From Gammaproteobacteria bacterium (GTDB taxonomy: Bacteria; Pseudomonadota; Gammaproteobacteria; SZUA-152): 64,000 nt of DNA. This document shows, one piece after another, positions 30,363 to 48,904 of this stretch (within the stretch, counting starts at the first letter, position 1; each line of letters opens with the position of its first letter). The stretch is taken from positions 124,001-188,000 of the forward strand of contig JAOUJW010000007.1 in the NCBI GenBank assembly GCA_029882975.1, given 5' to 3'. Both the position numbers and the translations under genes were made by a program. Below the pieces are notes generated by a model, which ran no database searches, was not told the DNA's origin, and worked only from the letters and a program-made list of their open reading frames with translations.

Positions 30363-33300
30363 TTACTGACCAATACTTTCGACGAACCACACATGGTGCA
30401 TGGCTGTACTGGAAGTGCTCATGTGCTGATCCCAGGCAACACCCACCTTTCCGTTATTATTGATAGCGATACTAACGCTGCCTGCATCGTTGTCTGCGGC
30501 CGTGTCGTAGGAAGCCAGCAGCGAAGGCTCCATTCCCCACGCCTGGCCCATCGGTGCAACGTTGAGATACACATTGTCCAGTTCATCGGTACGATTCAAA
30601 CTGGTCCATGCGGCGTAGGCGTTACCGGCAGCATCCAATACATATTGCAGATTGCTTTCACGCTCCGCGTTAACTCCGCTTACCTGGGATGGTGCTTCCA
30701 CATGCCACATGGACATACCATTGGTATCGGTCATGTAGTGAATCATCGCCGTCATATAACGGACCGGAGAATTACTGTTTCCGTCTGTCGTGTATTCCCG
30801 CCAGGCTGCCATGAAATGATAGGCGTCACCTGCGACGATGACTACATCGCTACGACGGCGTAAACGCACACCATCGCCGGTGGTTTTGTTATTAATATTT
30901 CCTCTGGCTGACCATCCGTTACCATCGTAAATATAGGCATTAATCGTGTTATTACCCGTGTCGGTGGATAACACCACGGTGTTACCACCGGCAGTGGCCA
31001 CATCTGTTTGATTAGTGGTCATACCGCTTGGACCATTGGATTCCGCCGACCATCCCTGCATAGGTACATAAACAGCCATTTTCAGATTAAACCCGCCAAT
31101 GTTGGTATTGGGATTGTCCACCAGCCAGGATACCTGCACCTCACCATTGGCGTGCACCACATGGGGAGTCAACACGTTGCGGGAAGGTACGGTTAAGGTT
31201 TCGGTATTTAACCAACCCCTGCTTTGCATATAGTGTTTGGCATGTATGTCCGTAGAGGTATCGCCGATGTCGCTCCAGACAACCGATACCATGCCCGTTT
31301 CATTGGTGGTTAGCTGGCGGGTTCTGCGACTGGTACGGGCATTGATCTCCGGCACAAGTCGTTTACTCCACCCTGCAGCCGGATCAAAGTTAGCCAAATA
31401 CAAAACTTCACCGTCACTAATCAAACCATACAGCATACCGCTGGCAGGAATGGCCTGCATGGACTCCAATACTGCCGCTACCGACAAATCACTAAACAGG
31501 TTGCTATCCGCCAATGCATTAGCCCAAACAGCGTTGTCTTCACTACGAATCACTTGATTGGTAACCGTTGTCACGGAGTTTTCTCCACGACTGATATTGG
31601 CCATCCCAATACGTATGGAAGTCACATCCGAATCATCCATAGCCACTTGAGGGCCATACATGCGGAAGCGGCTGGTACTGTGCATCATTTGCGATACCAT
31701 AACCGGTGTCGTCCAACCGCTAATAGTGGGAATGGCGTTACCACCCGCTGAGGGGTCGGTCGTGCCGGTTCCCGGGTTGGTAGGCTGGCTTGGCGTACCC
31801 GTACCTGTGCCAGAATCAGTGGCCGGCGTAAGATTGGTAAGAGACGTAGCCCGGCTATTTCGATGCACGCTCACCATATCATTGTTGCCGTCTGAATGAC
31901 CGACGACCCAGACGGTGTGCGGTATATCGTTATTGTCCAATGCGGTAGCCAGGGACTGAATGTGACCGCTTCCGTTCAACACGGTTCCAATCAACTCCTT
32001 TTGCGACCAAGGCGTACTCATGGCTTCTTTATAGCTGGCGACCACGTTACTGCCGCCGGACGTGGATTCCACCCAGGCCGCCGCCACTTTACCCGCATCA
32101 TTCATACTCAGTTCAAGCGCAGCGACTTCCGATTGAGTCCAGGCATGCATAACAGTGGCTGCAGTATGCCAACCCATGCTTGGCATGTACTGCGCCGCTT
32201 TAAGAACATTCATCATGCCACTGGCATTTTCAGCCGCCATGGCCGAGTCTTTTTCCACCCAAGCCACGCTGATATGACCCGCAGTGTTCTTGGCATACAC
32301 AGGAGCCAGGGCAATAGTGGATGTTGAAGTGGCGGATTGCCCATCCAAACGTTGCTCTGTTCCCCAAGCCGAACTGCTGTAAGACAGGCTGTAGATTTCG
32401 TGCATGGCCATACCATTAGTCATTTGCATTTGGGTATGTAAAACCATTACCAAATCGTCATTGCCTGCACCCCGGTTGAGAACGCCGGAAGCCAATCGGT
32501 TCAACATGACACCACCGGTGGTTACTGAAGACACCGTACCCCATACTTTATTGACGGTGTCATAAGTTGCCGTTTGCAGTGATGTCGCCCCATTTTGCTG
32601 CTCCAGCCACACAGCCCGAATATTATTGTTGCCATCCACGGCGGCCAAGAGAAAGTGATTTACCAAAGCCGGTGGATTTGCCATATCCATGCGATGCAAT
32701 TCCATGGAAGCCAGACTTTCCCATTGGTCAGCGGCGGTACGAGTGTGCACCCGCAGACCAAAACCATTGTTCATATGTGTCTGGCCCAGCAAATAATTGG
32801 TGTTATTGGAATCGCTAACAATCCTTGCTGCATGAACTTGAGCCGGCAAGGTAGCGCTACCCATAAAGTGCCCCATGGAACTCATGAACTCGCTGCTTAG
32901 GCTTTGCGTACCGGCATTCCAGGCCACGATGCCGCTTCCCGTACCCGGATTGGCAACAAACTGCACATCCGTTGCCGCCGTGCTGTAACCGATGGGTTGA
33001 AACATATTGCCGCTTGGACCACTCCAGGTATAAGCACCGCCGGCACTACCCACCCCACGCATCAGTGAAAATTCCGCTACGGTGTACTCGCCGGCCTGAT
33101 CCGGTACGGACTGGGTTACCCAATTGATAAACAAGTTTCCGTTGGCCACCTGCACTTTGGGAGCAACAATAACCGGCATGTCCGTAGTAACGAAACCAGC
33201 AGAGGTAATTTCTGTTGCTGTTCCCCAACTGTCGGTCACCAGGGATGGGTCCGTTGTTGGATCCAAGGTACCACCGCCCGGGTTCGTGGGTTGATCCGGG

Positions 33301-36300
33301 TTGGTAGACGGTTGCGTACCGGGAGCCGTGGTTATACTGATATCCACTGCGCGTTGACTCATTTTACCGGTATACATGACACCGCTTGCGGAGCCGGCAC
33401 CTTCAGCCCATACAATCCACGGAAGACCATTGCTGTGCAGTACGCCTGTCACCGCACTCACTTCGGTCGGTGCGGCAACGGTGGCAACCAATTCCTTCAT
33501 TTCCCAATGCAGGGTTGCCGGGCGCAGGGCATCCAGTACTCGAGTGTCTGTGTCCGTCTCAGTCCAGTAAGCCAGGGCGTCACCATTGGAATTCAACGCA
33601 ACACCCAGATTCGCTATGGCGGCACCGTCAGCCGGTATGGCGATATTCTCAACCACACCCCAGCCTCCTATGGGTTCAAAAAGCAAGGACTTGATGGCTG
33701 TCATGCCCATATGGACTTCCACCCAGGATACTAACTGGGTTACTTGGTTCACAGCAAAAGTGGGCTGACTCAAGGTGGTCATATTGCTCATCTCATCTCG
33801 CTGAGTAGCAGGCGCCCAGTTGGTACCATCATAGTCTGTGGTATACACCATTTGATCTGTACCTGTATCCACGTACAAGGCCACGTGCGCGGTGTCGCCT
33901 CCCTGTACTCCCGAGAGGCTCATGGCAGTAATTGCACCTATATCCACAATATTATTGGCATCTGCAGAACTCAACACTGCAGCTACCGAATTACTTTCCC
34001 ACGCACCACTGGAGGTGTTGTACACCGCAGTCATGAGACGTGTAGTGGTTCCTTGGGTTTCTCGCCACACAGCGCGAATGTTGTTATTGCCATCAACCGT
34101 GGTTTTTAAGGTGCCGTCGCTGTAGACCACCGTTGGCATCGTGCCCATACCCATGCGGTGCAATTCCTGCGCTGCAGACCAGGCACTGGAGCCGGTTCGA
34201 GTATATACATTCAAACCAAACCCATTCATTGCCGCAGCGATGTCACCTTTGGCTACCACATAGGCTGAATTACCCTGGGTCAATAGACTGGCATCCTGAC
34301 CTGTACCGATTTCGGCAGTACCCATAAAGTGAACCATGGTTCCCATATCCATGAACTCGCTGGCCTTTATTAAACCCGCTTCATCCCACAGGGCATAACC
34401 CAGCATGTTGGTATGACCCACGTATTGAATCAGTGAGGTATTAGCGGCAACATTGGTGGGCTGCCAAGGGCCGTCCCAGCTGTAACCGGTAATACCGTTC
34501 TCAGCCCGTTTCACACTCATCGTTTCGCCGTTATCGGACTTGAAGGTGGAGCTGAAAAACACTGTGTCCGCACCAACGATCTGCAGCTTCTGTTGCACGC
34601 TGGGATTGGCAGCCCCTTGAGAATTCACCATGGACAAATCGGTGGTGGCACCAAAATACCCGGACACATAATCAGTCCCGGTTTCCACAACAGGGTTCAC
34701 CTCGGGTGGTAAAGGTTGCGTGCCCACAGGCTTGATATTGCGTAGGTCGGCCCGACGGGCAAACAGACGTCCTTCCAACATGATAGTGCTGTTCATGGTT
34801 CCTGTTTCATTCCACGCGATCCAGGAAGTGCCGTTTTCATGCAGAACAGCTGTCATATGACTAACGTTTGTTCCTAGCAATAATTTAGTCACCAGTTCCT
34901 TCATAGCCCAAGGTCCCGCCGCCGGACGTAGAACGTTCAAGACGCGAATTTCTGCACTGTCCGTTTCGGTCCAATAGGCAACCGCGTCACCGCCGTGGTT
35001 CAATGCCACACCCAAATTGGCAATGGTGGCACCCATTGCAGGCGTAGCCACATCCTCCGGGGCACCCCAACCGTCTGTCGGGGTAAAACGCAGGGACTTG
35101 ATGGTCGTCATACCCATGTGCTGTTCCACCCAGGACACAAGTTGAGTGCTATGATAAACCGCAAAGCTCGCTTGGCTCAGGGTCGTCATATCACTCATCT
35201 GATCTCTTTGTGTGGGGGCACTCCATACTGCGCCGTCATAGTCCATGGTATAGACCATCTGGTCTGCGCCCGTATCAACAAACATGGCCAAATGAGCATT
35301 AACGTTACCGTGTTCGCCGGACAAACTCATACCTGAGATACTTCCCAGATCCACACTATGCGTGGCGTCTCCTGAGCTCAACACAGGCTCTGCCATACCC
35401 CAGATCAAGGTGGTAGTATCATATACGGCTGACATTACCCGAAGCGTGGAACCCTGGGTTTCTATCCATAGAGCACGAATATTATTGTCACCGTCGAAGA
35501 TAGTTTTCAAACTTCCTTCTTGATACACAACCGTTGGCATGCCGTTCATACCCATACGATGCAGCTCTTGATCAACCGCTGTCGACCAGACGTTTGCACC
35601 GGTGCGGGTATAAACTTTCAAACCAAAACCGTTCATCATGTCAGATAATGCGATCTTAGCCATCACATATACCGAAGTCCCATAAGACAACAAACGTGCT
35701 TCCTGTCCCGTGCCGATATCTGCCGTTCCCATAAAGTGAGCTGAACCGCCCATCTCCATGAACTCGCTGGCCATAATCGATCCGGCATCATCCCACAAGG
35801 CATAACCTTCCATACCCGACCGAGCCACGAATTGGGTTAACGTCGCCGTACTAGCTGCTGTGTCTATACCCACCGGCAGCCAGAAAGGTACCGCCGCATT
35901 GGGATCGGGCTCCCAGGTATAGCCGGTGCGACTGTTCGCAGCGCGGTGAACTTTCAACACCTCACCGGGGACACCACCCAGTGTTTTACTGATACTCCAA
36001 CTGTGGAACACCGTATCACCATCCACAATTTGTAAGCGCTGAGATGCCATACTGGGATTGGCGGCTGGGGCAAGATGCTCCATCCCCAAACTCTCACCGG
36101 CGCCGAAATAACCGGAAACATAATCGGTATTCACCACTACCTCCGGTGCCACAGTAGGATCGGGTGTGGGTCCCGGAATTGGCGATGTACCGGCAGGCAC
36201 GGTGTTTTGTTTGTCAGTCATACGCCCAAACAAGCGCCCTTCGAACATAAGGCTGCTGTTCATCGTGCTGGTTTCGTTCCAGACAATCCATGGTGTACCG

Positions 36301-39281
36301 TTCTCGTGCAACACAGCGGTCAAATGACTTAAATCCGTGTTGGCGTTTAGCTTGGCCACCAATTCTTTCATTGCCCAAGGACCGGCTGCCGGGCGCAAGG
36401 CGTCCAATACACGCATTTCACCAGTGTCAGCTTCAGTCCAATAAGCCACTGCATCACCGTCATGATTCAATGCCACACCCAGATTGGCAATCGTGGCACC
36501 GGTGGCAGGTGCAGCAACGGTCTCCGGTGTACCCCAGGTATTTGCCGGAGTAAAACGCAGGGATTTGATATTGATCTCACCCATATGTTCTTCCACCCAA
36601 GACACCAGATGAGTGCCATGATAAACCGCAAAAGTCGGCTGACTGAGTGTAGTCATATTACTCATTACATCCCGCTGTTCTGCCGGACTCCACGCGGCTC
36701 CGTCAAAATCCGTTGTATAGACCATCTGGTCTGTTCCCGAATCGACAAACATAGCCAAATGGGCGTTAACGTTACCGTGTTCGCCGGAAAGACTCATCGC
36801 GGTAATACTATCCACAGCCACGCTATTGTTGGTATCGGCTGAACTCAACACCTCCGTCGGACTGCCCCAGATCATAGTCGTGGTGTTATACAGCGCTGTC
36901 ATGATTCGCGTGGTGGTTCCCTGCGACTCAACCCACACTGCACGAATATTGTTATCACCATCGAAGACCGTTTTTAAGCTGCCTTCCTGATACACCACAG
37001 TCGGGTTGCTCATTCCCATGCGGTGCAGTTCCTGATCTGAGCTTGTGGACCAGCTATTGGCTGCCGTACGGGTGAACACCTTAAAGCCAAACCCGTTCAT
37101 CATTGCGGCGATATCGACCTTAGCCATCACATTAACTGAAGTGCCGCGAATCAAGAGACGTGCTTCCTGTCCCATGCCGATTTCGGCGCTACCCATAAAG
37201 TGGGCTGAACCATTCATTTCCATGAACTCACTGGCTTTGATCGCGCCGGCGTCATTCCACAGAGCATAACCTTCCATTCCGGTACGCCCTACGTACTGCG
37301 TCATGGTAGCTGTGCTTGCAGCCGTATTGATTCCTACTGGCATCCAGTAGGCCGGGATAGCATTGGGATCCGGCTCTCGAATGTAACCCGCATCGCTATT
37401 GGTTGAGCGAATAAGTTTTAAGGTTTCACCACTGACGCTGTTTAACGTTTTGCCGGTGCTCCAGCTGAAGAACACGGTATCCCCATCCACAATTTGTAAC
37501 CGCTGAGACACCAAACCGGGATTTTGCGATGGGGCAATGTGTTCCATGAACACAGTATTGCCTGCATCAAAATAACCGGACACATAGTCAGTACCCAACT
37601 TAACTTCCGGTGCCACATTAGGGTCCGGTGTCGGTCCGGCCGGAGGAACGGGATCTGTGCCAGGATCTGTTCCTGGGTCTGTACCAGGATCTGTTCCAGG
37701 GTCTCCGCGGCCTGTGTCATTAACATCAGAAATATCCGCCATGCGTTGAGACACATACAGATTAAAATTGCCTGCTGTTTGCCCTTGCTCCATCCAGGCA
37801 ATCCACGGCAGGTTGTCATCACGCATAGTCACTTGGGCAGCAGTAACTGTCGCATCCGCCGCAAACTGGTGCACCATCTCCTTCATGGACCACTCGCCCA
37901 CACCGGTTACGGCTTGTGAGCTGTCAAACACCAAATTTTGTAAACTGGAACCAATACGCAGTGTTGTACCCGACTTCTCCAACCAAACAACAGCTGCAGC
38001 ACCTGCCGCATTAACGTCCACTGCCAAATAGTCAATCGTGGAACCTGCTGTTGCATCCGCCACTTTAATTTCCTGGCTGGTCCAACCAATACCGGGAACA
38101 TAGCGGATAGAATCGATAGAATAATCACCCATGTGGTTTTCTACCCAGGTAACAACATGGTGAAACTGATTGACAGCAGAAACCGGCGCCACGCTAATGG
38201 AGGCCATGCCCTGCATATCCAGATCTTTGCGTGCTGAAACAGTCCAACCGGAACCGTCGTAATCCAGGGTGTGGATCAGCTGATCCGCTGTGGTGTCCAG
38301 ATACAGAACCATATGTACATTGCCGTTACCCGATTCACCGGACACACTCATGGATTTGATTGCAGATACATCCAATGAGCCCGTATCTACGGCTTCAACA
38401 TTGCCCCACGCAGGAGGTGTTAAACTTGTGTTTAACAGGGCAGTTTGTACGCTTTTCACACCTTCCTGGGTTTCGACCCAAATAGCACGAACGTTACCGT
38501 TGCCGTCAACAACAGCGGCCAAAGACTCCATGCTGTATGCCAGCGCTGTACTCGATCCCATCCGATGTAAATCATAATGGGTATTCGTCCATTGGGGGGC
38601 AGCATCAGAACGCATGAAAGCACTAATACCAAACCCATTCATCATTGACATCTCAGTCAGCAAAAACCCGGCTCCGTTATGCGTCACAAACATAGGCGCA
38701 GAACCATTGTCGAGGGTATAGCCATTCATGAAATGTCCCATTCCCCCCATATATTCACTAAGCTTAATATTTGTACCGGAATGCCAAAGAACATAGCCGT
38801 CCCCGCTAGCCCTATTGGCGGAGAACAAATAGCCGGAATCACCTGCAGCCACACCGATGGGGATATAAGAGGAATCGCTGGGGCCGTTCCAGCCCCCTAG
38901 ATTTGAGCTGGGGCCTCGGCGTGCTTTTAATTGAAAAGTCTCAGTGGTAGCGGTAGCTTCAACCCAACTGGCAAATACACGTTCTGAATTGCCGGTTCCA
39001 GTCGCAACTAATTGCAGCGACGTGGCATCCGGATTGCTTATGTTTTGCTGAATAGGATTAAAAGACGGACTGCCTGGATTTGGGTCCTCATCTTCCCAAT
39101 AACCAACAATAAACCCATCAACCAGTCCCGTCTGGCCTTTTTCCGGGCCATTGATAGGCGGATTTCGTTCACTGTATGAAACTGGTGAGTCTGTACACGC
39201 TGCTAACAATAAACTCACAAGAACGATAAAGCTGGGTATGCGCATCTTAAACAAAACGCGCAGAGAATCTCTCTTTAACAT
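30363..39281 (-). CDS. Giant repetitive surface lipoprotein, six homologous units
   Basis: 2972 residues. A signal peptide ends in the lipobox LLAAC (Cys 29). Then come six units of about 450-480 residues, joined by Pro/Gly/Thr-Asp-rich linkers. Unit borders in the DNA are near 37700, 36200, 34730, 33300 and 31800. Units 2 and 3 are the most alike. Each unit repeats short beta segments such as NNIRAVWVES and LVSWVE, suggesting a beta-propeller-like fold. Units 1-5 carry Met/His motifs at fixed places: EFMEMxxxxHFMG, MNGFG, LHRMGM; units 1-4 also have W-V-E-x-H-M-G. I recognise no known family. It is upstream of, and probably co-transcribed with, the Met/His-rich outer-membrane protein, which suggests a shared envelope function, possibly copper binding (inference). 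Confidence 0.85.
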   Translation of the reverse strand: MLKRDSLRVLFKMRIPSFIVLVSLLLAACTDSPVSYSERNPPINGPEKGQTGLVDGFIVGYWEDEDPNPGSPSFNPIQQNISNPDATSLQLVATGTGNSERVFASWVEATATTETFQLKARRGPSSNLGGWNGPSDSSYIPIGVAAGDSGYLFSANRASGDGYVLWHSGTNIKLSEYMGGMGHFMNGYTLDNGSAPMFVTHNGAGFLLTEMSMMNGFGISAFMRSDAAPQWTNTHYDLHRMGSSTALAYSMESLAAVVDGNGNVRAIWVETQEGVKSVQTALLNTSLTPPAWGNVEAVDTGSLDVSAIKSMSVSGESGNGNVHMVLYLDTTADQLIHTLDYDGSGWTVSARKDLDMQGMASISVAPVSAVNQFHHVVTWVENHMGDYSIDSIRYVPGIGWTSQEIKVADATAGSTIDYLAVDVNAAGAAAVVWLEKSGTTLRIGSSLQNLVFDSSQAVTGVGEWSMKEMVHQFAADATVTAAQVTMRDDNLPWIAWMEQGQTAGNFNLYVSQRMADISDVNDTGRGDPGTDPGTDPGTDPGTDPVPPAGPTPDPNVAPEVKLGTDYVSGYFDAGNTVFMEHIAPSQNPGLVSQRLQIVDGDTVFFSWSTGKTLNSVSGETLKLIRSTNSDAGYIREPDPNAIPAYWMPVGINTAASTATMTQYVGRTGMEGYALWNDAGAIKASEFMEMNGSAHFMGSAEIGMGQEARLLIRGTSVNVMAKVDIAAMMNGFGFKVFTRTAANSWSTSSDQELHRMGMSNPTVVYQEGSLKTVFDGDNNIRAVWVESQGTTTRIMTALYNTTTMIWGSPTEVLSSADTNNSVAVDSITAMSLSGEHGNVNAHLAMFVDSGTDQMVYTTDFDGAAWSPAEQRDVMSNMTTLSQPTFAVYHGTHLVSWVEEHMGEINIKSLRFTPANTWGTPETVAAPATGATIANLGVALNHDGDAVAYWTEADTGEMRVLDALRPAAGPWAMKELVAKLNANTDLSHLTAVLHENGTPWIVWNETSTMNSSLMFEGRLFGRMTDKQNTVPAGTSPIPGPTPDPTVAPEVVVNTDYVSGYFGAGESLGMEHLAPAANPSMASQRLQIVDGDTVFHSWSISKTLGGVPGEVLKVHRAANSRTGYTWEPDPNAAVPFWLPVGIDTAASTATLTQFVARSGMEGYALWDDAGSIMASEFMEMGGSAHFMGTADIGTGQEARLLSYGTSVYVMAKIALSDMMNGFGLKVYTRTGANVWSTAVDQELHRMGMNGMPTVVYQEGSLKTIFDGDNNIRALWIETQGSTLRVMSAVYDTTTLIWGMAEPVLSSGDATHSVDLGSISGMSLSGEHGNVNAHLAMFVDTGADQMVYTMDYDGAVWSAPTQRDQMSDMTTLSQASFAVYHSTQLVSWVEQHMGMTTIKSLRFTPTDGWGAPEDVATPAMGATIANLGVALNHGGDAVAYWTETDSAEIRVLNVLRPAAGPWAMKELVTKLLLGTNVSHMTAVLHENGTSWIAWNETGTMNSTIMLEGRLFARRADLRNIKPVGTQPLPPEVNPVVETGTDYVSGYFGATTDLSMVNSQGAANPSVQQKLQIVGADTVFFSSTFKSDNGETMSVKRAENGITGYSWDGPWQPTNVAANTSLIQYVGHTNMLGYALWDEAGLIKASEFMDMGTMVHFMGTAEIGTGQDASLLTQGNSAYVVAKGDIAAAMNGFGLNVYTRTGSSAWSAAQELHRMGMGTMPTVVYSDGTLKTTVDGNNNIRAVWRETQGTTTRLMTAVYNTSSGAWESNSVAAVLSSADANNIVDIGAITAMSLSGVQGGDTAHVALYVDTGTDQMVYTTDYDGTNWAPATQRDEMSNMTTLSQPTFAVNQVTQLVSWVEVHMGMTAIKSLLFEPIGGWGVVENIAIPADGAAIANLGVALNSNGDALAYWTETDTDTRVLDALRPATLHWEMKELVATVAAPTEVSAVTGVLHSNGLPWIVWAEGAGSASGVMYTGKMSQRAVDISITTAPGTQPSTNPDQPTNPGGGTLDPTTDPSLVTDSWGTATEITSAGFVTTDMPVIVAPKVQVANGNLFINWVTQSVPDQAGEYTVAEFSLMRGVGSAGGAYTWSGPSGNMFQPIGYSTAATDVQFVANPGTGSGIVAWNAGTQSLSSEFMSSMGHFMGSATLPAQVHAARIVSDSNNTNYLLGQTHMNNGFGLRVHTRTAADQWESLASMELHRMDMANPPALVNHFLLAAVDGNNNIRAVWLEQQNGATSLQTATYDTVNKVWGTVSSVTTGGVMLNRLASGVLNRGAGNDDLVMVLHTQMQMTNGMAMHEIYSLSYSSSAWGTEQRLDGQSATSTSTIALAPVYAKNTAGHISVAWVEKDSAMAAENASGMMNVLKAAQYMPSMGWHTAATVMHAWTQSEVAALELSMNDAGKVAAAWVESTSGGSNVVASYKEAMSTPWSQKELIGTVLNGSGHIQSLATALDNNDIPHTVWVVGHSDGNNDMVSVHRNSRATSLTNLTPATDSGTGTGTPSQPTNPGTGTTDPSAGGNAIPTISGWTTPVMVSQMMHSTSRFRMYGPQVAMDDSDVTSIRIGMANISRGENSVTTVTNQVIRSEDNAVWANALADSNLFSDLSVAAVLESMQAIPASGMLYGLISDGEVLYLANFDPAAGWSKRLVPEINARTSRRTRQLTTNETGMVSVVWSDIGDTSTDIHAKHYMQSRGWLNTETLTVPSRNVLTPHVVHANGEVQVSWLVDNPNTNIGGFNLKMAVYVPMQGWSAESNGPSGMTTNQTDVATAGGNTVVLSTDTGNNTINAYIYDGNGWSARGNINNKTTGDGVRLRRRSDVVIVAGDAYHFMAAWREYTTDGNSNSPVRYMTAMIHYMTDTNGMSMWHVEAPSQVSGVNAERESNLQYVLDAAGNAYAAWTSLNRTDELDNVYLNVAPMGQAWGMEPSLLASYDTAADNDAGSVSIAINNNGKVGVAWDQHMSTSSTAMHHVWFVESIGQ
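37651..37704. repeat. 12-bp tandem repeat encoding a (GTDP)n linker
   Basis: Four and a half copies of a 12-bp unit (GGATCTGTTCCA and variants) inside the giant lipoprotein gene. They encode consecutive Asp-Pro-Gly-Thr repeats between units 1 and 2. Copy number could vary by slippage. Confidence 0.9.
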
Positions 39282-40118: not shown

Positions 40119-40964
40119 TCATATATACAATATTCGCTCTAACAATCCTGTTTTATATTTATTTCTTAGATTTAAACGTTTCATATGCACATAACCAATA
40201 TGGCAATCGCACACGCCCCGGGGGCACGGACGCTCGCCCACTAAGTCCAGCAGATCTTGTTCATAAATATTTCCCAGCTCCTCCGCTGTAAAATGGCAAC
40301 GACTAACACCACCGTCAGCGCGGACACTGAAAGTATCCTCGCCGGTAAAACACAATTCATTCAGGGACCGATAATTCCGCAAATTGTCTTCAAAGCAAGG
40401 ATCAATGGAAACAATTTGTTGTATCTGTGCGGCGGAATAGTTAACCGCCGGCGCTTTACAGGCATTCACCCACACATACACCGAATTGGGCAAATGTTTT
40501 CTTAGCTGTTGCAGCACAGGGATATGCTCCACTAGACCTACCATGCCCACACTGAAGCGGATCCCTATAGACAGCAGTTGCTCACATTTAACCAGCAAGG
40601 AATCTAGAACCATTTCGCTGGGATGATACGACACCCAAAGCGCCGTAGTCTCTGTCTTACATTGACGCAACCAATCCAGTTTGCAACTCAAATTGGTTTG
40701 TACGGCTACTTTTCTCACTGAGGCGCAATGGGACAATTCCACTAGGGCTTGTTGATACCATTTTCGGATCAGTGCCTCACCCCAGGGAGTAAACAGCACA
40801 TTGAGATCATATTGACTCCTCTGTACCCATTGCACAAATCGACGCAATGCGTGCTGATCTTTTTCCCGAGCGGACTTATCATCTTGCTGCTTGGCGAAAG
40901 GGCAATAGTCACAACTAAAGTTACAACTGGATAGATAGCCCCGGTACAAAATATTGAAATTCAT
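40119..40964 (-). CDS. STM4011-family radical SAM protein
   Basis: 281 residues. The start MNFNILYRGYLSS overlaps the upstream gene by the 4-bp ATGA, so I prefer it to an in-frame codon at 41015. The radical SAM cluster motif is CNFSCDYC (Cys-x3-Cys-x2-Cys, about residues 14-21). The C-terminal third has a further Cys set (ELCFTG, VSRCHF, CPRGVCDC) consistent with an auxiliary iron-sulfur cluster of SPASM/twitch type. The family is named after Salmonella STM4011 and has no established reaction. It is the last gene of a five-gene set of STM4011-STM4015 relatives, which together suggest a peptide- or small-molecule-modifying pathway (inference). Confidence 0.87.
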   Translation of the reverse strand: MNFNILYRGYLSSCNFSCDYCPFAKQQDDKSAREKDQHALRRFVQWVQRSQYDLNVLFTPWGEALIRKWYQQALVELSHCASVRKVAVQTNLSCKLDWLRQCKTETTALWVSYHPSEMVLDSLLVKCEQLLSIGIRFSVGMVGLVEHIPVLQQLRKHLPNSVYVWVNACKAPAVNYSAAQIQQIVSIDPCFEDNLRNYRSLNELCFTGEDTFSVRADGGVSRCHFTAEELGNIYEQDLLDLVGERPCPRGVCDCHIGYVHMKRLNLRNKYKTGLLERILYI

Positions 40965-42301
40965 CGTAAGGCAAAGCTTTGCATTTTTTGCCGAACCTGC
41001 GCCGACGCCAACCACGGCCCAATACTATCCGAATGAGCGATACCCTTAGCCGTAAGTGTAACCCGGCCATTTTGCTTTTGTGCCAACGACAGATGCAACA
41101 ACTCTGACAAGCAGGCAAAATCCTGCCATACGGCGCTTTGAAAACGTCGAAAATAGGCGGAAGTGTTCAAGCCTTCAAGCAAAAGCAACGACTGAATCAG
41201 GTAACGGCGTTTTTGTTCTTCCAGGCTCAGCCGGATACCGTAGTCTACCTGCAAAAACTGTTGCTCGCTTTTATCACAATAGCCATCAATGATTTTTTTG
41301 ATTGGCTCCCGTCCCACCGCATATTCCCCGGAGTAATGTAAAGCTCGCGTATAAGACCGGGCGCCACTGCCCAAGCCCAGCATACCGTCTTCCTGACAAC
41401 AGTACACCGGCCCATTTCCCGCTACAGTGTGACGCAAGCGAAACATGCGCATGGACAATTGCTCGTAACCGTTTGCCAACAAATAATCCCGGCCTAGCCG
41501 ATAAAGCTCCTGCCTTTGGTCTTGTATGGTAAGGACTTTGCCCAACTGACTTTCCATTCGATTCAAACCTGTCAAAGGACGCACATATAAAGGATAAAGA
41601 TAAATCTCCTCCGGTTGAAACTCCAGGGTCTTCTGCAACGAAACCAACCAGCTTTTAGGGGTTTGTCCGGCTATACCATAGATCAAATCCAAATTGACAA
41701 CAGGAAAGTTCCAGAGACGTATGTTCTCCAACGCCGTAGCCACCTGGGCACGGGATTGTTTACGCACCAACAGACCCACCTCAGCATCATCAAAACTCTG
41801 CACTCCCATACTGATACGGTCAATACCGAAATCCCGCAACAATGCCAGTTTTTCCCGGGTAGCGGTTAGAGGTGATACCTCCACAGACACCGGAATCGCC
41901 TGTGTATCCATGCCCGGTAAGGCATTAACAACACTTAACACTTGATCCAATTGCTCCACACTTAAATAGGTCGGCGTACCTCCTCCCATGGCAAAACGCG
42001 CAAACTGCGCTTTTTCAAAAACCGGAGCAATGCTGCGAATCTGTCGCAACAGCGCGTTCACATACTCCTGCTGCAACACGGCTCTAGGCCGGGATAAAGT
42101 AAACAAATTGCAGAAACCACAACGCATCTCACAAAAGGGAATATGCACATAAAGAAACAGCGCCTTGGTATCTTCTTCACTCCACACATGAGGCAAGGAC
42201 TGCGGTTGCTGAAAAACGCGATAAGCACTTTTATGAGGATAGGAATAGGAATAAGCCTGATAGGGAGATTGTTGTAACCATTGACTTAAAGGTTGCTGCA
42301 T
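40961..42301 (-). CDS. STM4012-family radical SAM protein (HemN-like)
   Basis: 446 residues. The radical SAM motif is HIPFCEMRCGFCNLF (Cys-x3-Cys-x2-Cys, about residues 54-68), followed by the HemN-type FAMGGGTPTYLS (Gly-rich SAM loop) and VEVSP, then DRISMGVQSFDD. The C-terminal half resembles the HemN C-terminal domain. HemN relatives act on porphyrins or transfer methyl or methylene groups; this family's substrate is unknown. It overlaps the STM4011-like gene by 4 bp and follows the STM4013-like gene by 16 bp. Confidence 0.9.
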   Translation of the reverse strand: MQQPLSQWLQQSPYQAYSYSYPHKSAYRVFQQPQSLPHVWSEEDTKALFLYVHIPFCEMRCGFCNLFTLSRPRAVLQQEYVNALLRQIRSIAPVFEKAQFARFAMGGGTPTYLSVEQLDQVLSVVNALPGMDTQAIPVSVEVSPLTATREKLALLRDFGIDRISMGVQSFDDAEVGLLVRKQSRAQVATALENIRLWNFPVVNLDLIYGIAGQTPKSWLVSLQKTLEFQPEEIYLYPLYVRPLTGLNRMESQLGKVLTIQDQRQELYRLGRDYLLANGYEQLSMRMFRLRHTVAGNGPVYCCQEDGMLGLGSGARSYTRALHYSGEYAVGREPIKKIIDGYCDKSEQQFLQVDYGIRLSLEEQKRRYLIQSLLLLEGLNTSAYFRRFQSAVWQDFACLSELLHLSLAQKQNGRVTLTAKGIAHSDSIGPWLASAQVRQKMQSFALR

Positions 42302-42317
42302 TGGGCTTTCCCCTGAC

Positions 42318-43130
42318 TTAGGATTGTGTTGTTAATTCAAATTGCGCATATGGCACATCCCAAACACTCGAATGCCCCAAACGGTGCCCATGATAATCGT
42401 CATCACCGTATGCCGTACCATGATCCGAGCAAAGCACACAAAAACTGTTACCCTGTGTAGACAAAAACTCAAACAAACTTCCTAATTGCATATCTACATA
42501 ACGCAAGGCGGCCGCATGAGAATCGAGATTATCTTTGCTTTGCCCTGGAACGTAGTAACAGTTGGGTTGATGCAAGGCGGAGATGTTGAGAAACAAAAAC
42601 ACCCTGCCCTTACTACCCTCTTTCCACCGGGCATAGGATTGACGGATTAACCTCACCTGATATGCCGTGGAATCTTGCGCAGTCACGCCCATGGCTTCTG
42701 ACCAATGGCTTTCATCAAATAAATCCGGCAACACCCGTCCCAAAGGGGTACGCTTATTAAAAAAGCCAACTCCACCAACGCATACGGTATAGTAGCCCTG
42801 CTGCCGGAATCCACTGATGATATCCGGCGCATCAAATACCAACGTCTGCTCACCGGTGGTTTCGCTGCCCGGAAAAGCCAAAGCGAACAACCTCGGGTGC
42901 GGTCCGGGTGATACAGGTGTGGGCAAAAACCCGGCGAAAAAAGCATGGTGTGCCGCATAAGTGAAACTGGCCGGTGAGTGGCGTTTCTCCCAACCATGTT
43001 CCGGCAAAACGCGACTCAAATTGGGTAAGCGACCTGCTGTATATTCCTGATGAGCAACGTCAAACCGCAAGGTATCCAGGGTAATCATCACAAAGTCATG
43101 ACTGCCTAACATAGGTTTAACGTTCATCAT
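42318..43130 (-). CDS. STM4013/SEN3800-family hydrolase (sulfatase/alkaline-phosphatase-like)
   Basis: 270 residues, small for the alkaline-phosphatase superfamily. The first metal Asp lies in MITLDTLRFD (about residue 18), a possible nucleophile region around ASFTYAAHHAFF, and the second metal cluster SDHGTAYGDDDYHGHRLGHS (about 232-251). No sulfatase CxPxR formylglycine motif is visible, so it is more likely a phosphatase, phosphotransferase or other esterase. The start is uncertain: TTAAACCTATG is repeated at the start, so Met 1, 2 or 7 may be used. Third gene of the STM4015-4011 operon. Confidence 0.85.
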   Translation of the reverse strand: MMNVKPMLGSHDFVMITLDTLRFDVAHQEYTAGRLPNLSRVLPEHGWEKRHSPASFTYAAHHAFFAGFLPTPVSPGPHPRLFALAFPGSETTGEQTLVFDAPDIISGFRQQGYYTVCVGGVGFFNKRTPLGRVLPDLFDESHWSEAMGVTAQDSTAYQVRLIRQSYARWKEGSKGRVFLFLNISALHQPNCYYVPGQSKDNLDSHAAALRYVDMQLGSLFEFLSTQGNSFCVLCSDHGTAYGDDDYHGHRLGHSSVWDVPYAQFELTTQS

Positions 43131-43160
43131 AGGTTTAACATCTTTATATTTTCCATAGTT

Positions 43161-44354
43161 TCAAACATAGTGCCCCTGTCGCGTCGACTGCAACACACAT
43201 TTCATCGCGGCAATTTGTCGTGCGTACACCTGGCCACTCCGAGACAAACTCCCATTGACTTGATCACCAAAGGCATTGACTTCCAACACCACCGGCTTGG
43301 ACGACCCTCGCGGCAACAACACGTCAATACCCATATAGAGAGCGCTTGGAAAACAAGCGCTGACCTGCGCCACCGTACAATCCAATGCCTGCCGTTGCCA
43401 GGATGACAACCTCAAGGCAGACAAAGCTTGCTTGCTGTTCCCCAAATGCATGTTCGTTAACGGCGAATTGCTCAAACGAACCACATAGTGGTCTGCGACA
43501 GCGCGCAAACACACAGCGCGAATATCATAGACTTTATTGCCCAGACGCGATTTGGGGATCCATTGTTCGGCATATAATTGATCACGGCATAAATGATTCA
43601 CAATGTACTCAATTAAAGCCGCATCCGTATAGCGCCGAATCTTCAGAGAATTGTACAATCTCTCCGACTTAGAGCAGACTTCTATGCTGCCACTCAGGCT
43701 AAGCCACTTTCCTGAAGGATGGATTTGCAGCGCAGCAACACCACTGGCAGAAGAGCCGTATCGTGGTTTGAGAAACACGCGCCACATGTTATTAGAGCAC
43801 ATTAATTCACGCAAATGCTCCATGTCTCGCACCACCCCCAACAACCGTGGCGTGCGCACACCCGCTAGCTTCAAACGCTGCTGACAGTCCCATTTATCGG
43901 CCATGGCGGCAATAAGCCGCGGCGGGTTCATGTAGATAATTTCTACACCATTTTCTTTGCTGAAATCCTTTAATACACCTTCCACTTGCAGTAACAGCCA
44001 TTGAAACCCGAAAAACTGGAAGTCGATATGCTTGAGCTCGCCATGCTCGAGATATTGAACGGATTTATTCGTGGTTACGCCAATGTCCGGACAAGACTGC
44101 CCCAGGCCGATTAAGCCGCTCAAAACGGCAGTATTTTCACCCGGGGCATCCAAGCGAACCATTAATGTATTATGGTTCTTAAATTGGCGTAAAGTTTCCT
44201 GCATTACTCGCCGAGGACTTGGCAGCAGCTTTTGGTAGGACACTGCGTTCACCACACAGCCATCCTCACATTGCAATGCCTGCAAAAACCCGGAAACACG
44301 CGCACCGGGGATATTGCCAATCAGCAACCAGGCTGTACTGTTGCCATCAACCAC
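43161..44354 (-). CDS. STM4014-family protein, ATP-grasp-like
   Basis: 397 residues, GTG start, 9 bp after the STM4015-like gene. The middle and C-terminal parts look like an ATP-grasp ligase: WRVFLKPRYGSSASGVAAL (Lys plus Gly/Ser loop, about residues 187-205), LYAEQWIPKSRLGNKVYDIR (about 255-274), and near the end VVLEVNAFGDQVNG with the metal-binding Glu/Asn pair. ATP-grasp enzymes activate a carboxylate with ATP and join it to an amine or thiol. In this operon it could ligate an amino acid to a peptide or metabolite (inference). Family function is not established. Confidence 0.85.
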   Translation of the reverse strand: MVDGNSTAWLLIGNIPGARVSGFLQALQCEDGCVVNAVSYQKLLPSPRRVMQETLRQFKNHNTLMVRLDAPGENTAVLSGLIGLGQSCPDIGVTTNKSVQYLEHGELKHIDFQFFGFQWLLLQVEGVLKDFSKENGVEIIYMNPPRLIAAMADKWDCQQRLKLAGVRTPRLLGVVRDMEHLRELMCSNNMWRVFLKPRYGSSASGVAALQIHPSGKWLSLSGSIEVCSKSERLYNSLKIRRYTDAALIEYIVNHLCRDQLYAEQWIPKSRLGNKVYDIRAVCLRAVADHYVVRLSNSPLTNMHLGNSKQALSALRLSSWQRQALDCTVAQVSACFPSALYMGIDVLLPRGSSKPVVLEVNAFGDQVNGSLSRSGQVYARQIAAMKCVLQSTRQGHYV

Positions 44355-44363
44355 AATAGAAAT

Positions 44364-45296
44364 TTACTCTGCAACCGCGATGTAACGATAAATTTCATCC
44401 CCATCCACGTCATCTTCCTGTTGATCACTCACATCCACGCTAACACCATCCAGTTTACGTAATTTCTGCTGCAGCTCATCTGAGATATAGTGAAAATGCA
44501 AATCCAATGCTTGCAGACCTCTGACCAACGGGGATTCCAATAAAGCGTTTGCGCCTGTGTCCGACATATTGCCGAGCGACATATCCAACACATGCAGCTG
44601 TTTCAAAATTCCATTCTGAGCCACTCTCTGCGCTAATTCGTCGGCAATTTCGCAATTGCGCAATCCCAAGTAGCGCAAGTGGGGCATGGGTTTTTCCAGC
44701 AAAGATACGATATCATCCACGGAAGCGTCAAAACCGTACTGATCCGAACCCAGCCACAATTCCAAATGGGTTAGCGCCGGTAATTCAGCAGCCTTTATAT
44801 CCTCCAGCACAGACGCAGGCAACCCTCCGGTTTCAACAACCAGCTTTTCCAAAGACGACAACTGCATACGGCTCAGACGCAATCCCTGACCACCCCGCAC
44901 ACGAAAACACTTAATACGGGGATACGCAGCAAAGAATTCCCGATAATCCGTTTGTTCTATCCAGGATATCTCGCTTTCTTCCCCAATGATGTCCCCGAAA
45001 AATATCGCCTCGAGACTCGTGAGCAGCTTACTGTTCTGTGTTAACGACTGAATGATTGCGGTCGGCGGGTTTTCATAGGGCTCCCCCCAACAACCGATCA
45101 CCAATGAACGAATCTTCCCCGCATTGGCATCTTCAAGAAACTTTTGCAATAGATCCGAAAAAGATTTTCCCGCATCCATGTCGTCCCAGTCCAAAGACAG
45201 GCGATAAGCCAATTCCGTATCCCCTATTCCCACACTGGGATCGTAATCGCTCACTTTAGATCCATTAAATATTTCTGCGTGTTCATCTATGGTCAT
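44364..45296 (-). CDS. STM4015-family leucine-rich-repeat protein
   Basis: 310 residues, no signal peptide. Leucine-rich repeats are visible from about residue 140 on: LSSLEKLVVETGGLP, LPALTHLELWLGS, MPHLRYLGLRNCEI, LKQLHVLDMSLGNMSD, VRGLQALDLHFHYISD. The C-terminal tail is very acidic. The N-terminus matches the STM4015 family, whose role is unknown; an LRR protein could be a scaffold or substrate-recognition partner for the enzymes encoded downstream. GGGGG lies just before the ATG. First gene of the operon, with a good promoter 34 bp upstream. Confidence 0.87.
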   Translation of the reverse strand: MTIDEHAEIFNGSKVSDYDPSVGIGDTELAYRLSLDWDDMDAGKSFSDLLQKFLEDANAGKIRSLVIGCWGEPYENPPTAIIQSLTQNSKLLTSLEAIFFGDIIGEESEISWIEQTDYREFFAAYPRIKCFRVRGGQGLRLSRMQLSSLEKLVVETGGLPASVLEDIKAAELPALTHLELWLGSDQYGFDASVDDIVSLLEKPMPHLRYLGLRNCEIADELAQRVAQNGILKQLHVLDMSLGNMSDTGANALLESPLVRGLQALDLHFHYISDELQQKLRKLDGVSVDVSDQQEDDVDGDEIYRYIAVAE

Positions 45297-45329
45297 ACAT
45301 CCCCCTGTAGTATCACTCGACTCCCTACA

Positions 45330-45358
45330 AGTATAAGCAAGGAGAACTATTTGACCAA
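45330..45358 (-). promoter_or_regulatory. Sigma70 promoter of the STM4015-STM4011 operon
   Basis: On the minus strand TTGGTC and TATACT are separated by 17 bp, ending 34 bp before the STM4015-like ATG. The upstream hairpin terminator isolates this operon from the gene before it. Confidence 0.6.
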
Positions 45359-45425: not shown

Positions 45426-46175
45426 TTACTGCACGGGACTGACAAGGTTGTTTTTCTTCGGTTGATACCGGACAAAATCGTGTCTTGAGTGAAACCAGTA
45501 GTTAAACACGTCAAGCATTTTCCCTGCAATATCGTCTACGACATCTTCCAGTAAAGCACAGGTCACATTGTCCAGTTCACTCTTCTTGAAATTTTCATTG
45601 GGAAAAATCCGCTCTCCGTTGACCCACGCTCCTCGGGAATGGGCCAGTTCCTTGTCGACATGCAATTTCCCAAAGTACTGTAAGCGATTATACAGACCGG
45701 AATGTTGCAGTTGATCTTTCATACTATCAATAAACACACCAAATGCCGCTTCCAGCATCTCAATGGTGACCAGGGAAATGAGAGGATTATTATGGCGTTT
45801 CACATGGTAAATTGTGGTGTAAACCAGGTCCCGGACCACAAAACTCTTGCTGCTCCATATATTCTCTATGATACTGAAACTACTCGGTCCCCAGGACTTC
45901 TCAGAAAATCCCAAACGCCCAAGATCCTCCAAGTACCACTTCCAGTGATCCATGTCTTCAAGACAATGGGTATTCACTTCCAGCTCCAAATATGTACCGG
46001 GCTCACTCACTGACATGGACTCAAGGATATCCTTAAATCCCAAGACGAAAAACAGCATCGACGGAACAAATTTCAATTTGTCTTCTGCATCATCGTCCTC
46101 GCGCAGCCAGCCGCACAGTGCGGATTGCTCCAATTGCTTAGAGACCCTTTCCACTCTTGCCAATATACGTTTCAT
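45426..46175 (-). CDS. Haem-oxygenase-like fold protein, candidate diiron enzyme
   Basis: 249 residues, helical, no signal peptide. Two clusters of possible metal ligands are spaced as in haem-oxygenase-like diiron oxidases/iron-containing redox enzymes: NTHCLEDMDHWKWYL (His 70, Glu 73, His 77) and FGKLHVDKELAHSRG (His 172, Glu 176, His 179), with Glu 142 in the helix between. This arrangement is known from enzymes that oxidise amino-acid-derived or other small substrates with oxygen. I cannot name the substrate. It lies just upstream of the STM4015-4011 operon on the same strand but with its own terminator, so it is associated by position only. Confidence 0.55.
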   Translation of the reverse strand: MKRILARVERVSKQLEQSALCGWLREDDDAEDKLKFVPSMLFFVLGFKDILESMSVSEPGTYLELEVNTHCLEDMDHWKWYLEDLGRLGFSEKSWGPSSFSIIENIWSSKSFVVRDLVYTTIYHVKRHNNPLISLVTIEMLEAAFGVFIDSMKDQLQHSGLYNRLQYFGKLHVDKELAHSRGAWVNGERIFPNENFKKSELDNVTCALLEDVVDDIAGKMLDVFNYWFHSRHDFVRYQPKKNNLVSPVQ

Positions 46176-46396: not shown

Positions 46397-48541
46397 TTAC
46401 ATGGATCCGCAATCCTGCCCCGGAACCGGGTTGTATTGGAGGCTTCCGGCATTGATGCCGGTGACACAAAATTGTAAGGTCAAGCCACCTTGTCCTGTAC
46501 CGGTGGTGGTGACAATAGCTGTGCCGCTTGTATCACTGGTACCGTCGGCGGATTCGGTGATATCACCGGTGAACTCACCGCTAACTACCGCTCCGGCTAC
46601 CGGGTTACCCTGGTTATCCAGCAACTGTATGGTTGCCTCGCCCACTCTACGACCGCCACCAACATTTACAGATCTTAAGCTGATGGACCCTACTTGTACG
46701 TCAGTTGCGGTGCCGGAACCCGCCGCGGTAGTGGCACTGGCCACATTAGAATAAGCGGAAGTGCCGTTGCCATTGGCTGCATTGACACGATACCAGTAGG
46801 TAGTGGATGCATTCAGACCCGTGTCAGAGTAGGAGGTGCTATTCGCTGCCACAGGAATCCCCGGACCGAAGTTCACACCGTCAGTGGAACGTTCTACAGA
46901 GAAACCGGTTTCATCGGCGCTATTATCCGCCCACGTCAGATCAATCTGCGAACTGGACACAGCGCCGGCACTCAACCCGCTGGGTGCATTTGGCGCAGTA
47001 CCACCCCCATTGCCACCACCATTGATGGGATATCGCACTTGATAGTTACTGCCTATATCACCATTTTGCGGGAATGTGGGAGGCGCCAAGCCACCGATTA
47101 CCTGCGCAAAACCCATACCACCCTGGTCTTCATGATCCAGAATATGGCAATGCATGATGGTTTTTCCTTCGAACACAGAAGAAGTTTGTGCATTTAGGTC
47201 GAAGCGAATCGCACAGTTACCGGCCAGAGTGTCGTAGTACTCGCCGTCTTCAAAATCACCACCACAATTACCCACCACTTGGAAGTGATACACGTGTAAG
47301 TGGAAAGGATGGTTCAGACCGCCTTTAATACTCCACTCCTGCATACCGTCCGCGTTAAGTACAAATGTAGGACTATTCATATCGAACTTAGCGCCATTAA
47401 TGGTGCGAGCGCCCATATTGACTGTTTCAAAATTGTCAGGGGTTTGTGCACGCAAATCACGCAAGTAGGAAGGACGTTTGGACGCCCAGGTAGAAACACC
47501 GTCTGCGGCAAACGGATGCGAGGTGGAATCCGCAGGCAATGCAGCATCTACAAAAATACTAGCTACCGGATTTCCGTTCACGGATATCTGTGAATCTGCG
47601 CTACAACGCACGGCGATGTCAGCACGAGAAGCACCGGATAAGCTTATGGAGTTGGTTGCTAAAATTTTTGGTACCTGTGTACGCCATACACCATCGCGAG
47701 ACATCAATGCCAGCTCACATTGATTACCCACCGACAACGTCTTAGCTCGGCCGTCGCGGTCAGCCAGCAATACGCGCCAGTGTTGCCAAGAGTCGGGCGG
47801 AGAACACAAGTTGCCATTGATGGCACCATTCACAGTCCAAGACGGCGCTAGAGTTCCACTGATTAAAGTGTCGCCTCCGGTACCTCTGGCATTGGGATCC
47901 AGATAAGCGACAACGACTTTTCTTTCTACCATGGAAGCGACATTAGCCGGGATACCATCAAACTTGTCGTCAATAATCATTAGACCAAAAGCACCGCCGG
48001 CCGCCTGCAAATAGGTTGAACCATGGTGATGCGCGTGATACCAATAGGTTCCCCCCATATGATCGGCACTGATGTCGTAAACATAATCCCCGGCATAACC
48101 GCCTTCGATGACGCGGGTAACTTCATCAGAAGGGTTTTCCGGCGATATATGTAATCCATGGGTGTGAAGGTTACTGATGTTTGGATCTTTAAAGACGTTG
48201 TGATCCGGGCTGGGTGCCTCATAGGGCAACAGGTTACGAAAGGTCACAACGTATTTCTTACCCGGCTCCATAACCACCGTCGGCCCCGGTATACTGTAGT
48301 TACCACCGCCCTGCCGATAGGCACGTGTGGTTAATGTTTCACCGTTAATAACAAAGGAAGCCTCACCCATTTCGAGTACACCGCTGTAATACTCTTCCGG
48401 ATTGCCGGTCGTTGCTGGATGGTGCGTCCACTGGAACAACTCTGGTTCACTAATGACATTGGTGGTGGGGCATTGCGTGGCTTGCGCTATGCTTGCCCCT
48501 CCCAATAGTAAAGCACCCACTATACTGGTTATCTTATTCAT
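46397..48541 (-). CDS. Secreted multicopper oxidase with C-terminal FN3 and Ig-like domains
   Basis: 714 residues from the ATG at 48541, which has GGGGG 5-9 nt upstream and begins a signal peptide (LLLGGASIAQA). Copper ligands: LHTHGLH (about 118-124), YWYHAHHHG (about 162-170), HPFHLHVYHF (about 416-425) and HCHILDHEDQGGM (about 475-487), giving type 1, 2 and 3 sites. A glycine-rich linker leads to a fibronectin type III domain (about 525-615) and a final Ig-like beta domain, both unusual additions suggesting cell-surface or polymer attachment. It probably oxidises metal ions or phenolics in the periplasm or outside. Many His and Met near the sites are typical, but the substrate is not predictable. 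Confidence 0.92.
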   Translation of the reverse strand: MNKITSIVGALLLGGASIAQATQCPTTNVISEPELFQWTHHPATTGNPEEYYSGVLEMGEASFVINGETLTTRAYRQGGGNYSIPGPTVVMEPGKKYVVTFRNLLPYEAPSPDHNVFKDPNISNLHTHGLHISPENPSDEVTRVIEGGYAGDYVYDISADHMGGTYWYHAHHHGSTYLQAAGGAFGLMIIDDKFDGIPANVASMVERKVVVAYLDPNARGTGGDTLISGTLAPSWTVNGAINGNLCSPPDSWQHWRVLLADRDGRAKTLSVGNQCELALMSRDGVWRTQVPKILATNSISLSGASRADIAVRCSADSQISVNGNPVASIFVDAALPADSTSHPFAADGVSTWASKRPSYLRDLRAQTPDNFETVNMGARTINGAKFDMNSPTFVLNADGMQEWSIKGGLNHPFHLHVYHFQVVGNCGGDFEDGEYYDTLAGNCAIRFDLNAQTSSVFEGKTIMHCHILDHEDQGGMGFAQVIGGLAPPTFPQNGDIGSNYQVRYPINGGGNGGGTAPNAPSGLSAGAVSSSQIDLTWADNSADETGFSVERSTDGVNFGPGIPVAANSTSYSDTGLNASTTYWYRVNAANGNGTSAYSNVASATTAAGSGTATDVQVGSISLRSVNVGGGRRVGEATIQLLDNQGNPVAGAVVSGEFTGDITESADGTSDTSGTAIVTTTGTGQGGLTLQFCVTGINAGSLQYNPVPGQDCGSM

Positions 48542-48904
48542 ATTTCCCCCAACAGTAATAAAAGTTCTACGCTGCACTATCAACATAGTGGGGGCTACTT
48601 TGACCGCTCAACATTAAACTCAAGTTATAACTATCTTAAGCATGGCTTAAGTGCAGTATATGCAGGGCCGTTCCGGATATAATTATTTAAGCAATACCTA
48701 ATATTCCACCTGACCCAACTGTGACACTCATCACTAAATTCTTTGCCGCTTCAATTTAACTGATAACTCTATCTCAATTTCCGTGCACCCACACTGCAAT
48801 TCAGTGCTGATATGTTAAATTTACTTCAATAAAATGACGACATTCTGTCATTAGAGGCAGCTCCAAATTAACCCGCAGCACGAAACATAACACGGTGATG
48901 AGAC
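48542..48904. other. Divergent intergenic region with inverted repeat
   Basis: 363 bp between the multicopper oxidase and response-regulator genes, holding both promoters. CTTAAG-CATGG-CTTAAG at 48635-48651 is a perfect 6+6 inverted repeat about 95 bp upstream of the oxidase start and is a plausible operator. No RNA gene or ORF seen. Confidence 0.45.

Follow-up and report, generated by a model that had tools for sequence, protein, structure and literature searches.

The STM4011-STM4015 gene set and its distribution

The five genes STM4015-STM4014-STM4013-STM4012-STM4011 lie together on the minus strand of contig JAOUJW010000007.1 (assembly GCA_029882975.1), from a gammaproteobacterium of the lineage SZUA-152. 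We analyzed a 64,000-nucleotide stretch of this contig (the window; positions 124,001 to 188,000 of the contig), and all coordinates given without a locus name are positions in the window. The genes encode a leucine-rich repeat (LRR) protein, an ATP-grasp ligase, a hydrolase, and two radical S-adenosylmethionine (SAM) enzymes, and so far they are named in the databases by Salmonella locus tags only. We propose, tentatively, that these proteins form one pathway that works on the conserved C-terminal glutamate of the LRR protein.

45296-44364, minus strand: STM4015-family LRR protein of 310 amino acids (NF038076, 325.6 bits vs. a cut-off of 275), net charge -28, with an acidic linker and then IYRYIAVAE* at the C-terminus
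44364-44387, minus strand: tail codons (RYIAVAE) and stop codon of STM4015, encoding a C-terminal tail peptide of the EDEIYRYIAVAE type
44354-43161, minus strand: STM4014-family ATP-grasp ligase of 397 amino acids (NF038074, 311.3 bits vs. a cut-off of 175), GTG start, net charge +13
43130-42318, minus strand: STM4013/SEN3800-family hydrolase with an alkaline-phosphatase/sulfatase fold (NF038075, 395.4 vs. 250 bits; PF00884)
42301-40961, minus strand: STM4012-family HemN-like radical SAM protein (NF006067, 574.4 bits vs. a cut-off of 380)
40964-40119, minus strand: STM4011-family radical SAM/SPASM protein (NF038073, 362.8 bits vs. a cut-off of 200)

All five proteins score above the curated NCBIfam cut-offs (NF038073-NF038076 and NF006067), and the Pfam matches across them are to LRR, ATP-grasp, sulfatase-fold, HemN-like radical SAM, and radical SAM/SPASM families. 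The intergenic gaps are 9 bp (STM4015/STM4014), 30 bp (STM4014/STM4013), and 16 bp (STM4013/STM4012), and STM4012 and STM4011 overlap by 4 bp (ATGA). The open reading frames (ORFs) and the family cut-offs agree with the initial annotation of this region, which had listed these five genes in this order, with small gaps and one 4-bp overlap.

To examine the distribution of the gene set, we scanned an alignment of STM4011 against one genome per species and found at least 575 relatives. We obtained 80 loci, from Actinomycetota, Bacteroidota, Cyanobacteria, Planctomycetes, Acidobacteria, Verrucomicrobia, and Proteobacteria. The gene set is also found on plasmids of Deinococcus, Paenibacillus, Methylobacterium, Streptomyces, and Salmonella. 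The order STM4015-4014-4013-4012-4011 is nearly constant (most of 91 loci). Tandem extra copies of STM4015 are frequent, with up to five in a row, and one genome has 7 matches. STM4015 is rare in the window's own class: just 1 of 369 genomes has a protein above the cut-off, and there are two clear relatives below it. The Salmonella cluster had no match in 5,426 E. coli genomes, and comparisons of plasmids and at the DNA level gave distant relatives only.

The genes also occur together. In a sample of 150 genomes from the actinobacterial family of a Planobispora, STM4014 and STM4011 are present in an identical set of 70 genomes, and STM4015 is present in those 70 plus one more (Fisher P ~1e-42, not corrected for relatedness). 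Similarly, STM4015 and STM4014 are both found in the same 2 of 370 Bacteroidota genomes. Thus the co-conservation on which the initial annotation's single pathway depended is almost perfect, and the retention of the five genes in order across phyla, together with their co-occurrence, argues for one pathway.

Four clusters (L088, L107, L121, and L139) seemed to lack STM4014. For two of these, STM4014 lies at a different place in the same genome, next to another complete STM4015; for a third, it is on a separate contig and adjoins a remnant of STM4015. In L139 (7035-9761), STM4014 is fused to STM4012 in a 909-amino-acid ORF, and STM4013 was not seen in that locus. Because L088, L107, and L121 have STM4014 elsewhere and L139 has the fusion, we rejected the idea that STM4014 is dispensable.

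Some other loci have unusual arrangements. In Leptolyngbya (L091:5993-8635), STM4013 is interrupted by a transposase-like ORF of 560 amino acids on the opposite strand. Locus L067 (5848-9297) encodes a homolog of STM4013 (NF038075, 341 bits) in another cluster that lacks STM4014 and STM4015; its partners there are a MoaA/viperin-like radical SAM protein, a thymidylate-kinase-like protein, and a NUDIX hydrolase. A plasmid of Bacteroides finegoldii (L198:5879-9896) encodes STM4014, a STM4015 with an N-terminal WGR domain and the tail YPMITE, remnants of STM4013 and STM4012, and a fusion of STM4011 with a HAD phosphatase domain.

We found no published function for the gene set in the open-access literature that we searched, where STM4013 and STM4015 each have one passing mention, in genome-wide tables. 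The set is widespread and without a published role, and "uncharacterised," as the initial annotation had it, still describes it.

The STM4015 tail and the enzymes of the proposed pathway

The last seven residues of STM4015 are conserved as R-[YF]-x-A-V-x-E (consensus RYVAVGE). Among 111 STM4015 C-termini from the loci, 110 end with glutamate, and the one exception is a frameshift fragment. The tyrosine is replaced by phenylalanine in 25 of the 111, and the glutamate is the only invariant residue of the tail. Across 54 non-redundant STM4015 proteins, the entropy is at most 1.85 bits over the last seven positions and 0 at the final one; the acidic linker before the tail has about 3 bits per position and varies in length. 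An alignment of 25 diverse STM4015 proteins has just 18 invariant columns, and Glu310 is one of them. The final residues of STM4011-STM4014 are not conserved.

This tail is specific to STM4015. A strict version of the pattern matched 88 of the 15,632 ORFs in the loci, and all 88 are STM4015; in the 5.18 Mb host genome, the pattern occurs once, at STM4015. We therefore rejected the possibility that the tail is a general tag. The terminal glutamate is kept in divergent relatives, in distant paralogs, in copies far from the cluster, and in tandem copies. In the sole genome of the 150 from actinobacteria that has STM4015 but neither STM4014 nor STM4011 (G816), the glutamate has been lost, and the protein ends with ...DPYFPAIID.

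The initial annotation had likened the combination of a ligase, two radical SAM enzymes, and a recognition scaffold to peptide- or cofactor-modifying systems, and it had noticed no obvious precursor peptide in the 129 bp between the upstream gene and STM4015. Indeed, this interval contains no ORF of more than 5 codons. We also compared, all against all, 2,957 small ORFs at most 2.5 kb from about 90 clusters, and we found no conserved small precursor, only low-complexity, high-GC matches. So the likeness of this conserved unit, including its hydrolase, to peptide-modifying systems holds without a small precursor ORF nearby, and we rejected a ribosomally synthesized and post-translationally modified peptide (RiPP) with a separate precursor. 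The conserved tail, together with the relatives of STM4014 described below, suggests that the repeat protein may itself be the workpiece and that no separate precursor is missing. The peptide that had seemed to be lacking is probably the C-terminal end of STM4015.

In about 55 loci, a DUF6745 protein (PF20530; LRR-like in some species) and a protein of about 100 amino acids adjoin the cluster (for instance, L062:4504-5829, L063:3156-4620, and L065:11043-12352). Conservation is strong at the C-termini of these two proteins (Y-x-P-x-x-[QE]-T and V-A-D). They are common neighbors yet are absent from the window, so we do not consider them obligatory parts of the system.

The AlphaFold2 model of STM4015 has a mean predicted local distance difference test (pLDDT) score of 96.6. 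The nearest solved structure is 2ra8 (Q64V53_BACFR from B. fragilis; Z 33.1, root-mean-square deviation [rmsd] 2.1, 282 residues aligned), which is an uncharacterized protein of the STM4015 kind with a longer N-terminus than the window's protein. The other near structures are LRR folds. The B. finegoldii relative of 2ra8 has the N-terminal WGR domain, which the window's STM4015 lacks. The profile match to 2ra8 (E 1.8e-80) ends at residue 354 of the 362-residue chain. The native protein ends with ...YPMITE, and the construct has further residues (probably a tag) past the glutamate, so the protein can fold without a free glutamate at its end.

When we compared the STM4014 profile to the PDB, LysX of Thermus ranked first (E 9e-6), followed by RimK (E 3e-3), and STM4014 and LysX have D-x-R...R...TN in common. 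The AlphaFold model of STM4014 (mean pLDDT 91.1) is most similar to ArgX:LysW (3vpb; Z 24.9, rmsd 2.7, 276 aligned), which is also Foldseek's first hit. The next structures are RimK (Z 24.0), LysX/ArgX with LysW-gamma-AAA (24.0), RimK with RpsF (24.0), and LysX (23.9). Glutathione synthetase (22.7) comes after the ArgX, RimK, and LysX structures. RimK lengthens the Glu-ending tail of S6.

The charges of the two proteins are also opposite: STM4015 averages -9.7 per 100 amino acids, and STM4014, at +1.3, is the most basic member of the set (+13 overall in the window). Amino-group carrier protein (AmCP) pathways use acidic carriers and basic enzymes (PMC9303977), and they join amino acids to the gamma-carboxylate of the terminal glutamate of LysW (PMC10433800). 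Given the conserved tail and a ligase whose nearest folds belong to enzymes that act on a C-terminal glutamate, the LRR protein is probably a substrate or carrier rather than a mere scaffold. The initial annotation was right that this is an LRR protein, but the role it gave it, a recognition scaffold, probably needs to be revised.

Both radical SAM proteins have an invariant CX3CX2C motif: C57/C61/C64 in STM4012 and C14/C18/C21 in STM4011. The profile of STM4012 matches HemN (1olt) and the methyltransferase NocN. The SPASM region of STM4011 has five invariant cysteines (C205, C223, C247, C252, and C254), and its profile matches the SPASM region of SkfB in the PDB.

STM4013 has profile matches in the PDB to the alkaline-phosphatase/sulfatase fold. 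In an alignment of 17 sequences, the place of the nucleophile is taken by an invariant Phe56-Thr57, and D19, D236, H237, and H253 are invariant as well. We rejected a formylglycine sulfatase because Thr57 stands in place of the Cys or Ser of C/S-x-P-S-R. A gene for a HAD hydrolase lies directly downstream of the Salmonella cluster; together with the HAD domain that is fused to STM4011 in B. finegoldii, this hints at phosphate chemistry. We also considered an anti-phage system and rejected it: PADLOC gave just weak matches, to viperin-type radical SAM proteins.

Transcription and neighboring genes

45357-45330, minus strand: sigma-70-like promoter match (9/12), between the upstream gene and STM4015
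45398-45381, minus strand: terminator-like hairpin that ends the upstream gene (7 pairs, 6 of them G-C), followed by TTTTCTTT

The initial annotation gave the cluster its own promoter. The 9/12 match is not above chance (we found 10 sigma-70-like sites in the region vs. 12.0 expected in shuffles), but the hairpin of the upstream gene fits with separate transcription of the five genes. A promoter of their own is at most plausible from the sequence.

The protein encoded upstream of the cluster (45426-46175; 249 amino acids) has no match in Pfam or NCBIfam. Beyond it is a multicopper-oxidase-like protein whose C-terminal part is fibronectin-like (46397-48586). On the other side of the cluster, a lipoprotein-like ORF of 2972 amino acids (30363-39281) is built from several repeats of about 500 amino acids.

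Interpretation and comparison with known systems

Our preferred interpretation, to which we give a probability of roughly 45%, is that STM4011-STM4015 are one protein-tethered modification pathway in which STM4014 works on the C-terminal glutamate of STM4015. The glutamate that ends R-[YF]-x-A-V-x-E would be the work site. STM4014 would activate a carboxylate of this residue and join an amine to it, in all probability an amino acid or amino acid derivative. STM4012 and STM4011 would next alter either the tail or the group tethered to it, and STM4013, as a hydrolase of the alkaline-phosphatase superfamily with a threonine nucleophile, would remove a phospho group or release the product. The logic would match that of amino-group carrier systems, except that LysW is replaced by a large LRR protein. 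The gene set with its order and co-occurrence, the conservation and exclusivity of the tail, the fold of the ligase, and the motifs are what we observed; from these we infer the action of STM4014 on STM4015, the identity of the amine, the order of the steps, the roles of STM4011-STM4013, and all of the chemistry.

A more novel proposal is that the C-terminal glutamate of the LRR protein is the site at which a LysX-like ligase loads a compound, and that the two radical SAM enzymes transform the compound there. This would be a new class of protein-tethered biosynthesis or protein modification, and we hold it more tentatively. If it is correct, then the class spans many phyla and includes Salmonella, and the genomes of some actinobacteria would each encode several LRR carriers. 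If the LRR protein is a carrier or substrate, then modification of carrier proteins and of protein C-termini would extend to LRR proteins and to radical SAM chemistry in many phyla, and asking for the product becomes asking for the mass of the C-terminus of STM4015 with and without STM4014.

Several observations weigh against our interpretation, as do the differences from AmCP systems that we describe below. Remote extra copies of STM4015 in two genomes (G769 and G778) have lost the glutamate even though these genomes keep the enzymes, and loss of the glutamate alongside loss of the enzymes was seen in one genome. The structural matches to STM4014 that are within 1 Z unit are tied (RimK with ArgX), and glutathione synthetase is just ~2 lower, so the substrate cannot be read from the fold by itself. 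Finally, the tail of STM4015 has a pLDDT of about 90 in the AlphaFold2 model, where it is packed in place, and the alignment with 2ra8 extends to the last residue (310). These features imply that the tail may belong to the fold instead of being a free acceptor, and the model does not support a free, disordered arm.

The confident packing and the alignment through the C-terminus raise another explanation: the tail may be a structural or docking peptide that is never modified, with STM4015 acting as a scaffold or regulator for a small-molecule pathway of the other four enzymes. LRR domains are typical binding modules, which fits. On the other hand, the last residue is constant even though the linker differs among the proteins in both length and sequence, and the 2ra8 construct continues past the glutamate, so the fold does not need it to be free. 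Also, this explanation does not account for why the ligase's nearest folds act on a C-terminal glutamate. We consider it unlikely, if less so than the other alternatives. In a RiPP-like version of the pathway, which we think is doubtful, the tail would be the core, the LRR domain would be a giant leader, STM4011 and STM4012 would modify residues of RYVAVGE (by cross-linking or methylation, for instance), and STM4014 would cap the peptide or close a ring. Peptides are common substrates of SPASM radical SAM enzymes, STM4011 matches a RiPP maturase (SkfB), and STM4012 matches HemN and a methyltransferase (NocN). Furthermore, the conserved R, Y/F, A, and V exceed the needs of a ligase that requires only the glutamate. 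However, phenylalanine replaces tyrosine in 25 of 111 tails, which leaves the glutamate as the only invariant residue, and a protease, a transporter, or a partner like a RiPP recognition element is not consistently present in the annotated clusters.

STM4014 could instead be a regulator of the RimK type, attaching a single glutamate or several to STM4015 (or to a different protein), with the radical SAM and hydrolase genes carrying out a separate, linked reaction. RimK and RimK:RpsF are among the top structural matches, and the Glu-ending tail of S6 is what RimK extends. Nevertheless, the five genes are kept in order together across phyla and they co-occur, which argues for a single pathway, and we view this alternative as very unlikely.

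As for known systems, the closest parallel to our preferred interpretation is with LysW and its ligases LysX and ArgX. Both have an ATP-grasp ligase of the same fold, and in both the ligase is basic and its acidic partner ends in an essentially invariant glutamate. In contrast to LysW, which is a zinc-binding protein of about 54 amino acids with the motif EDWGE, the putative carrier is an LRR protein of about 300 amino acids with the tail RYVAVGE, and it has neither EDWGE nor the LysW fold. LysZ/Y/J/K are absent, and two radical SAM enzymes and a hydrolase with the alkaline-phosphatase fold are present instead. RimK has nearly the same structural score (Z 24.0 vs. 24.9) and also acts on the C-terminus of a protein, but there is no ribosomal protein in the STM4014 cluster, and the obligate partners are not the same.

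In the pearlin pathways (with carrier peptides of the PEARL ligases, as for 3-thiaglutamate), a ribosomally made protein is likewise worked on at its C-terminus, and radical SAM enzymes act downstream. Here, the loader would be an ATP-grasp ligase instead of the aminoacyl-tRNA-dependent PEARL, and the carrier is not a small peptide. The radical SAM RiPP systems of the SkfB and NocN types resemble this gene set in having SPASM and HemN-like enzymes and in the possible modification of a C-terminal tail, but here there is no separate precursor, and the recognition part is the LRR protein. By analogy, STM4011-STM4015 would work like an amino-group carrier system without being a member of that family.

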